Part shown: positions 2,611 to 7,704 of the stretch, one piece after another
How positions within the stretch are numbered: the stretch's first letter is position 1
Layout: each line of letters starts with the position of its first letter
NCBI GenBank assembly: GCA_026386995.1
Contig: JAPLMO010000489.1
Span: 1-7,704, forward strand
Direction of reading: 5' to 3'
DNA length: 7,704 bases
From: Planctomycetota bacterium
GTDB lineage: Bacteria > Planctomycetota > Phycisphaerae > FEN-1346
Program-made: the position numbers and the translations under genes
Notes under the pieces: model-generated
Told to the model about the DNA's origin: nothing
The model's input: the letters and a program-made list of their open reading frames with translations, nothing else
The model's database searches: none

Positions 2611-5848
<3,238 letters not shown>

Positions 5849-5856
<8 letters not shown>

Positions 5857-6931
5857 GCGGACCCCCGAGGCCACAGAACGTGGCAAGAATGACGCTCGGC
5901 TGCTCCTGCTCGTCCGGAATGGGGTGGAACTGGACCGACGACGCCTCGATCTCGCGACAGCGCAACCCCTCGATCGACTGGTCGTTCAGGTTGCGGTGCG
6001 TCACCTCGACGCCGCGTGCCAGGCCGTCATCCGACACGACGAAGCCGTGATGCTGGACGGTGATATGGCCCGAGCCGTCTCTCAGGTCTCGCACGGGATA
6101 GTTGACGCCGTGGTGCCCGATCCGCATGCGGGCGACCTGGCACCCGAGGGCCAGGGCCAGCACCTGGTGCCCGAGGCCGATGCCCAGCAGCGGCGTCTTG
6201 CCCAGAAGCCTGCGTACGGTGCCGATGGCACCTTCCTGAACACGCGGGTCGCCCGGCCCGCCGGCCACGAGCACACGTTGCGGCCGCTTGGCCAGGATCG
6301 CGTCGGCATCGGCCGTGGGCGGCATAAGTTCCACCGTCACGGAGAGGGCGGCCAACTGATCCAGGAGGCTCCGCTTGACCCCCAGATCCAGAAGGACCAC
6401 TCGCCCGCGCTCCACACCTGGCGCCAGGCGGACCTCGGCTCGGCTCATCCCTTGCACCAGGTCCGTGCCGAAAGGCGAGGGGGTCTCGCGGACGCGCCGG
6501 GCCAGATCCTTCGGATCGAAGTCGCCGGAAGCGATCACGCCCCGCATCTCCCCGTGTTCCCGCAGATGGACGGTCAGCGCTCGCGTGTCCACTTCGCGGA
6601 TGCCGACGATGCCGCGCTCCGTCAGGAAGTCTTCCAGCGACCCCGTGGCCCGCCAGTTGGAGTAGGTGCGGCTGTACTCGCGGATGACGAGGCCGCTGAC
6701 GCGGACCGCCGCGGACTCGTTGTCCTCGCCATTGACGCCGTAACTCCCGATGATGGGATAGGTCAGGACCGCGAGCGTGCCGCCGTAGGAAGGATTGGTG
6801 AGGAGTTCCTGGTAGCCGACGACGCCGGTGTAGAAGACCGTTTCGCCAAGAGCGATGCCGACTTGGCCGAAGGGCAGGCCCTCGAAAGTTGCACCGTCTT
6901 CGAGCAGGAGCACGGCCTTGTTGCCACTCAT
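5849..6931 (-). CDS. carA: Carbamoyl-phosphate synthase small subunit with a disabled glutaminase site
   Basis: A 360-residue CarA of normal length; the ATG at 6929-6931 has AGGGGG five bases upstream. Residues 1-150 are the CarA-specific N-terminal domain ([11 protein letters not shown] at 39-49; [10 protein letters not shown] at 56-65). About 177-348 is the class I glutamine amidotransferase domain. Normally its Cys-His-Glu triad hydrolyses glutamine and feeds ammonia down the tunnel into CarB. Here the nucleophile elbow reads G-I-G-L-G-H-Q (250-256), so Gly252 replaces Cys (codon GGC at 6176-6178). The triad His is kept (His336) but its partner Glu is Ile338. The substrate-contacting Asn in Q-N-H-G-F is His294, and S-N-G-P-G-D is A-G-G-P-G-D (223-228). 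The C-terminal stretch after His336 has also lost the usual E-A-x-P-G-P. Glutamine hydrolysis is therefore very unlikely; the subunit may be structural, supporting ammonia-dependent synthesis. The frame is intact, so it is not a pseudogene by ordinary criteria. Confidence 0.95.
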
Positions 6932-6985: not shown

Positions 6986-7704
6986 CTAAATGTATTCGAT
7001 GGTGCTCGGCGGCTTCGGCGTCAGGTCGTAGAGAACTTTCGTGACGCCGGGAATCTCATGGACGATTCGTCTCTGGATTCGCTCGAGGACCGGCCACGGC
7101 AACTTCGTCGGCGCGGCCGTGATGGCGTTCTCGGAATCGACGCACCGGACGGCAATGATCTGGCCAAACGCACGCCGGCCGCCCTTCGTCACGCCCGTGG
7201 CCTGGTCGGCCATCAGCACGCCGAATGCCTGGAACCGCTTGAACTTTGCGGTCTCCTCTTCGACGATACTGCACGCCTTGCGGACGACGGCCACGCGCGG
7301 CGGCGTCACTTCGCCGATGACGCGGCACGACAGGCCCGGCCCGGGGAACGGCATCCGCTGGTACATAACTGCCGGCAGGCCCAGCACCTTGCCCACCTTC
7401 CTTACGTCGGGCTTGTAGAGGGTCTTCAGCGGCTCGATGGTCGTGAAGCCGTACGCCCGCTTCGCGCTGATGCCGATCTGGTCGAGGATGTTGTGCTGGG
7501 TCTTGACGCCCTTCTTCGTCTCGACGATGTCGGCCGCGATGGTCCCCTGGAGGAGGAAGTGGGCGCCGGAGTCGCGGACCGCCTTGCCGAACACCTTGTA
7601 GAACGTGTCGCGGAAAGCCTTACGCTTTTCCTCGGGGTCGGTCAGGCCCTTCAGGGCGAGGAAGAACCTGTCGGCGACCTCGAGGACGGAGACGCGGATG
7701 CCGA
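6986..7704 (-). CDS. guaA: GMP synthase, ATP-pyrophosphatase/dimerisation C-terminal part (5' end outside window)
   Basis: The last 238 residues of a gene entering from the right edge, ending with TAG at 6986-6988; an internal GTG at 7594 is not the start because the frame stays open and conserved to the edge. GMP synthase adenylates XMP and aminates it to GMP. Visible marks (fragment numbering): A-L-K-G-L-T-D-P-E-E-K-R-K near 16-28, Q-G-T-I-A-A-D at about 50-56 (usually Q-G-T-x-Y-P-D), P-F-P-G-P-G-L followed by R-V-I-G-E-V in the dimerisation domain, and K-P-P-S-T-I-E at the end. The terminal pair is Tyr-Ile rather than the common Trp-Glu, and V-G-V-x-G-D-x-R is T-G-V-T-K-G-G-R, so this belongs to a divergent branch. 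The glutaminase domain or subunit, if any, is outside the window, so it could be two-domain GuaA or a stand-alone B subunit. It lies 54 nt upstream of carA, probably in the same operon. Confidence 0.93.
   Translation of the reverse strand, partial: GIRVSVLEVADRFFLALKGLTDPEEKRKAFRDTFYKVFGKAVRDSGAHFLLQGTIAADIVETKKGVKTQHNILDQIGISAKRAYGFTTIEPLKTLYKPDVRKVGKVLGLPAVMYQRMPFPGPGLSCRVIGEVTPPRVAVVRKACSIVEEETAKFKRFQAFGVLMADQATGVTKGGRRAFGQIIAVRCVDSENAITAAPTKLPWPVLERIQRRIVHEIPGVTKVLYDLTPKPPSTIEYI

Follow-up and report, generated by a model that had tools for sequence, protein, structure and literature searches.

A cluster of three genes on contig JAPLMO010000489.1 of an uncultured planctomycete (assembly GCA_026386995.1) probably carries out ammonia-dependent synthesis of carbamoyl phosphate and guanosine monophosphate (GMP). 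The cluster, guaA_short-carA*-carB*, lies in the stretch of 7,704 nucleotides that was analysed in full (the window; all of its features cited below are on the reverse strand) and encodes a GMP synthase consisting of the ATP-pyrophosphatase alone, together with the small (CarA*) and large (CarB*) subunits of a carbamoyl-phosphate synthetase (CPS). Judged by its sequence, CarA* has a dead glutaminase and is paralogous to the CPS small subunit; it would be a structural leftover, kept as the folded partner of CarB*, which would accept free ammonia directly to form carbamoyl phosphate, and the short GuaA would likewise aminate xanthosine monophosphate with free ammonia. Ammonia is the likely donor because the glutaminase of CarA* is dead, its fold is predicted to be intact and the carboxyphosphate-site residues of CarB are kept, and this reading is strengthened by the GMP synthase of the cluster, which lacks a glutaminase, and by related short-guaA clusters that have a carB but no intervening carA. 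The same observations on CarA and CarB uphold the retained scaffold that an initial annotation of the window had proposed; the feeding of that scaffold by ammonia, the other half of the proposal, is what we infer from them.

The glutaminase site of CarA*

The carA* gene (5849..6931) encodes a CPS small subunit of 360 residues in an intact reading frame, which scores 355 bits against the TIGR01368 family (cut-off 307.35), has the Pfam domain order PF00988 and PF00117, is predicted to adopt a CarA-like fold and retains many of the invariant CarA columns. The Cys-His-Glu triad of class I glutaminases is incomplete: in the alignment to E. coli CarA, Gly252 (codon 6176..6178) occupies the column of the nucleophile, Cys269, and Ile338 (5918..5920) that of the triad Glu, Glu355, with His336 (5924..5926) retained at the column of His353. 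His294 (6050..6052) is found in the column of Asn311 and Gly224 (6260..6262), which lies outside the range covered by the initial annotation, in that of Asn240, the Asn of the NGPGD loop. The four replacements had been placed at these sites before and the alignment bears out all of them, whereas the statement that the triad had been lost holds for Cys and Glu, two of its three residues, but not for His336, which is still present. On this evidence the window CarA is a true member of the CarA family without a working glutaminase, which is the property that defines the small subunit of an ammonia-dependent CPS.

These replacements recur in the best 120 of 2206 homologous matches, which have 52-96% identity to the window CarA and to which the following counts refer. 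The Cys269 column contains Gly in 119 sequences, Ala in one and Cys in none, and the NGPGD Asn is replaced by Gly in all 120; the Glu355 column contains no Glu and chiefly Ser, Cys and Thr, and the Asn311 column has His in 92 sequences and Asn in two. The His353 column is less altered, with His in 107 sequences, Asn in nine, Gln in three and Ser in one. Some of the relatives have a Cys three residues beyond the nucleophile (GLGC), not at the nucleophile itself. The alignments indicate that the loss of the glutaminase is clade-wide and not peculiar to the window. A read error, which the initial annotation had already argued against, or a frameshift in carA* is ruled out by the absence of the nucleophile Cys from 120 of 120 listed homologues, and so is a shifted alignment concealing an elbow Cys, as no homologue has Cys at that column. 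That the gene is a decaying, non-functional duplicate is very improbable, and a sequencing or assembly artefact is refuted; the glutaminase residues do show drift, but the 120 homologues align through the active-site segments, the cluster recurs in seven genomes and CarA has retained many invariant columns.

In a tree of CarA (69 rows) the 13 CarA* rows form a single clade with support of 100/98, and the remaining 54 rows are set apart (99/99) from these and from the two further dead CarAs discussed below (G285 and G337); the bootstrap had not fully settled, and G285 and G337 are long branches whose placement is unsure. One of 80 named genome loci belongs to the CarA* clade (L003, from a Planctomycetota metagenome-assembled genome, MAG), and CarA* was found in four of 392 Planctomycetota genomes (562-604 bits, next score 403) by a profile scan that, like that for the short GuaA, covered at most five candidates per genome and may have missed a few copies. 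Within the order of G001, CarA* is present in four of eight genomes, and a fifth, G393, has a CarB* truncated at the contig start; within the class of G146 it is present in two of nine. A DNA pattern for the Gly elbow gave 32 matches in the 298 genomes of the class, of which 30 were made into loci and one (L152 of G001) was CarA by profile; the pattern overlooks variants such as GIGLGHE and contributed nothing further.

Among the elbows of loci L001-L121 and the window, Gly is confined to CarA* and to L006, and the rest have Cys. The latter gene (L006 7965-9134, G650) is the only CarA found in a Thermoguttaceae MAG and has Gly for the Cys and Thr for the Glu, although Cys is kept in all 119 of its other listed relatives and it groups among the 54 rows outside CarA*. 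The sequence argues for a separate loss of the glutaminase, which, being represented by one sequence, could be of recent origin.

The cluster and its canonical counterparts

The window contains the 3' part of guaA_short (6986..7702), which encodes the last 238 residues of the ATP-pyrophosphatase, its start being cut by the window end. In all seven genomes with CarA* (G001, G146, G161, G209, G395, G396 and G397) guaA precedes carA* on the same strand, separated by about 100 bases or less in six, whereas in G396 the two are some 1.1 kb apart and a weakly scoring open reading frame (ORF) intervenes. In all seven, carB follows carA*, in some cases truncated by the contig end. In six of the seven, guaA is a whole frame that encodes the ATP-pyrophosphatase only, with no PF00117 domain, and the seventh is cut at the contig end. 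PF00958 scores above its cut-off in all six complete copies. The 120 nearest listed homologues of the short GuaA are 298-345 residues long, and a glutamine amidotransferase (GATase) domain is annotated in none. The linkage is also visible in the public records, since 26 contig sizes are common to the 120 CarA* and the 120 short GuaA proteins, compared with 0 to 6 when the sizes are shifted by a few bases. Three of these records (P0143, P0166 and P0239) label the short GuaA an 'ExsB family transcriptional regulator', and our results suggest that this name, and the name 'glutamine-hydrolyzing', are wrong for these proteins.

The initial annotation had treated CarA* as simply the CarA of the bacterium, which was not borne out: a second, canonical carA, looked for in the relatives, is present in four of the seven genomes that have the cluster (G146, G209, G395 and G397), and fused GuaA is whole in three (G209, G146 and G397) and partial in two (G001 and G395). 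In most relatives the cluster accompanies canonical CarA as a second set, and it would constitute an ammonia-type paralogue set alongside the canonical enzymes. Canonical CarA, CarB and fused GuaA were looked for and not found in G396, nor in G161, an apparently very incomplete MAG with a single PF00117 hit; G001 contains additional pieces of the C-terminal half of CarB. The correlation of tetranucleotide composition between the contigs bearing CarA* and canonical CarA is 0.92 in G209, 0.89 in G146, 0.86 in G397 and 0.86 in G395. The G209 contigs correlate with other genomes at 0.73 or less, and only G209 clearly exceeds all of its cross-genome pairs; a value of 0.92 also occurs between contigs of different genomes, in the pair L112-L148. 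Composition supports two CarA types per genome most clearly in G209; for G146, G397 and G395 it is supportive only, and contamination is possible. The TrpG, HisH, PyrG, fused GuaA and canonical CarA elbows of the CarA* genomes all retain Cys; these labels were assigned by motif and in some cases confirmed, and two chance-like pattern matches (frames in L197 and L281) were left out of the count. Canonical CarB of G393, G394 and G397 matches in two halves at separate places, which suggests that carB is split in members of this order, an effect to which contig ends may contribute.

Downstream of the cluster the window encodes an alternative GlmU (TIGR03991; 1034-2317), an acyl carrier protein (677-937) and an HMGL-like protein (1-645). 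A tblastn search with the first two found no match in the fetched CarA* loci, and an Rfam scan of 11 sources returned nothing besides two transfer RNAs.

CarB* and the wider family of short GuaA

The carB* gene (2611..5886) has a TTG start as listed, but the homologous start is an ATG at 5856, which gives an overlap of 8 bases with the carA stop. CarB* scores 1447 bits against TIGR01369 (cut-off 1027) and has 76-86% identity to the CarBs of the CarA* genomes, compared with 57-59% to canonical full-length or half CarBs, except for a fragment of 134 residues at 72%. In a tree of CarB (71 rows) two unusual clades are each supported at 100/100: clade (a), with 10 rows, comprises the window, the CarA* genomes, G285, G337 and G393, and clade (b), with 8 rows on a long stem, comprises six CarBs whose genes have no intervening carA, together with those of G399 and G042. 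The two are not sisters in the tree, although the placement of (b) is unsure owing to its long stem. The columns of the carboxyphosphate-site residues R129, R169, E215, E299, N301 and R303 are intact in all full-length rows of both clades (7/7 and 5/5).

The CarA-facing side of CarB differs. At the column of E. coli Arg265, presumably a wall residue of the ammonia tunnel at the CarA side (the tunnel wall of CPS is reportedly the subject of a 2004 paper by Kim and Raushel), the carB ORF of the window has Thr275 (codon 5062..5064). In the set of N-terminal halves Arg265 is present in 52 of 52 canonical rows and in none of the 10 rows of clade (a) or the 8 of clade (b); Asp258 follows the same pattern, and Gln262 is present in none of clade (a) and in two rows of clade (b). 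Being spaced 4 and 3 residues apart, positions 258, 262 and 265 would lie on the same helix face, if helical. Among 420 columns conserved in 40 other full-length CarBs, 20 are changed in clade (a) and 58 in clade (b), and 10 are changed in both, compared with 2.8 expected (hypergeometric P of 7e-5, kinship ignored); the 40 'canonical' sequences include one from Geobacter (L026) that really belongs to clade (b), which the 52 N-half rows exclude. These changes point to a former docking and channel side that has been reshaped in clade (a). The CarB of the Thermoguttaceae MAG has retained Arg265.

The short GuaA extends beyond the cluster, being present, by a gap in score (401-604 bits, next 306), in 20 of 392 genomes, with a fragment in G146. 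In a tree of GuaA (44 rows) it forms one clade (100/100), and none of ten other short-guaA frames tested, that of G399 included, matches PF00117. In neighbourhoods of about 4 to 14 kb, four of these 21 genes lie beside CarA* and CarB* (G001, G209, G161 and G146) and two beside another dead CarA and CarB, namely those of G285 (elbow FAWGLGQ, triad His gone) and G337 (elbow GGIAAGFE). Six are accompanied by a CarB without an intervening CarA (G011, G081, G099, G278, G315 and G358), two have HisF close (G042 and G389) and seven have none of CarA, CarB or HisF as neighbours, although G236 has asnA near and G291 a convergent carB. Profile scores revealed no CarA in G081, G315 and G056; a CarA-like match with canonical-like scores occurs elsewhere in G011, G099, G285, G337, G358 and G278. 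Stand-alone GuaAs of another lineage occur in two small genomes, L342 of G176 and L338 of G298 (frames of 323 and 318 residues, respectively), and group with the fused GuaAs in the tree.

The G389 locus brings together hisF, short guaA, asnA (whose product scores 304 bits at a cut-off of 292.8) and the gene of a PurF-like protein within about 6.5 kb. The PurF-like protein (L343 8319-9818) begins MSGIFG, its Ser2 aligning with the position before Gly2 of B. subtilis PurF, which is that of the catalytic Cys1, and a protein of G399 that is 51% identical to it (L297 1-1047) begins MGGFFG and is divergent to a clade (b) CarB. The HisF-like genes near short guaA (L343 3516-4283, L352 3933-4709 and L258 8978-9781) score 267-268 bits, under the TIGR00735 cut-off of 294.55; no HisH was noticed beside them, in the course of searches not aimed at HisH. 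Tentatively, and with less assurance than for the cluster itself, we suggest that some Planctomycetota may possess a modular second amidotransferase set stripped of glutaminase, in which free ammonia would supply the nitrogen for nucleotides as well as for amino acids and CarB would be reshaped around Arg265 on the side facing CarA. Besides AsnA and the nucleophile-replaced PurF-like protein, the set would comprise the short GuaA, a HisF lacking HisH and a CarB whose CarA is either dead or missing. The cluster could instead have been recruited to a specialised pathway with a different nitrogen donor or acceptor, as might be argued from the occurrence of CarA*, CarB* and short GuaA as second copies in four of seven genomes and from G399, where a relative of short guaA adjoins hisF and other genes of the locus resemble, by eye, sugar-modification genes. 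We consider this unlikely, however, since the synthase residues checked are intact, CarB* scores above the CPS family cut-offs, the recurrent neighbours (CarB, HisF, AsnA and the PurF-like protein) belong to nitrogen-incorporating steps, and none of canonical CarA, CarB and fused GuaA was found in G396.

Several observations weigh against ammonia as the donor. In G042 a contig (L249 1-1628) opens with the 3' end of a CarA immediately before the clade (b) CarB, with the triad His and Glu intact and the nucleophile-bearing remainder not on the contig. In Geobacter sp. OR-1 a clade (b) CarB (L026 10540-13740), 72-78% identical to the planctomycete members, is immediately followed by an ordinary CarB; the gene run includes a carA that has Cys, as well as genes resembling pyrB and pyrC. 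These two CarAs speak against a clade (b) that is uniformly CarA-less; because of them the absence of Arg265 from clade (b), which may be partly glutamine-fed, does not indicate the use of ammonia, and the loss of this residue is no proof of such use. The CarA end of G042 leads us to give less confidence both to an ammonia-fed cluster and to the wider set stripped of glutaminase. The six complete short GuaAs linked to CarA* score 318-337 bits against TIGR00884, slightly under the cut-off of 338.75, and since an ordinary CarA coexists in four of seven genomes the role of the second set could differ. In G209 a stand-alone class I glutaminase with intact Cys (L272 1314-2033, reverse strand) adjoins canonical carB and, at 86 bits (cut-off 198), weakly resembles GuaA subunit A, so the short GuaA of this genome might still be glutamine-fed. 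More generally, CarA* could be dead and another glutaminase (TrpG, canonical CarA or a protein like GuaA subunit A) could dock in trans to feed CarB* and short GuaA. Among solved structures the short GuaA is indeed closest to archaeal subunit B proteins, archaeal GuaA consists of two separate subunits, according to PMC10526850, and a canonical CarA is available in four of the seven genomes; this alternative nevertheless seems improbable, if slightly less so than a specialised pathway, as the inspected PF00117 hits of the CarA* genomes other than G209 included no recognisable GATase of the subunit A type, CarA* still fills the CarA slot, and clade (a) CarB has lost Arg265, Asp258 and Gln262 in all rows. 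Finally, in the review PMC6245113 glutamine is held to be the donor for all bacterial CPSs, and the use of ammonia by E. coli CPS is said to require very high, likely unphysiological concentrations.

Comparison with known systems

If ammonia does feed the guaA_short-carA*-carB* cluster, ammonia-fed nucleotide synthesis has been selected in some lineages, with both glutaminases dropped in one cluster, and CarA* and CarB* are natural variants for probing the entry of ammonia into CarB. Our literature search, in which most subscription papers lay outside the scope, found no report of a bacterial ammonia-type or CarA-dead CPS, nor of a Planctomycetota carA of such type. Among the closest known systems is human CPS I (PDB 5dot), an ammonia-using mitochondrial enzyme that lacks the nucleophile Cys and requires N-acetylglutamate; it is a single chain of about 1490 residues, whereas the planctomycete subunits are separate and bacterial, and their cluster adds a GMP synthase without glutaminase. 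E. coli CarAB (PDB 1a9x; 1c30 for C269S) hydrolyses glutamine by means of Cys269 and His353, both described as essential in PMC6245113, whereas CarA* has lost the Cys and the Glu.

The short GuaA resembles the archaeal GMP synthase subunit B (2dpl, 6jp9), a stand-alone ATP-pyrophosphatase that is its best solved match (287 bits, compared with 215 for the best fused GuaA). PMC10526850 pairs the archaeal protein with a subunit A glutaminase, for which there is here just the weak candidate in G209, and states that GMP synthase ATP-pyrophosphatases accept external ammonia in vitro. A survey that covered 490 to 886 genomes for each enzyme lists glutaminase-less forms for NAD synthetase only, with GuaA 100% fused and none for CarAB, as given in its Table 1 (PMC3376133). 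The single-domain NAD synthetase of that survey (NadE type N), an amide-forming enzyme for which the same paper describes direct use of ammonia, works in the manner that we propose for the enzymes of this cluster.
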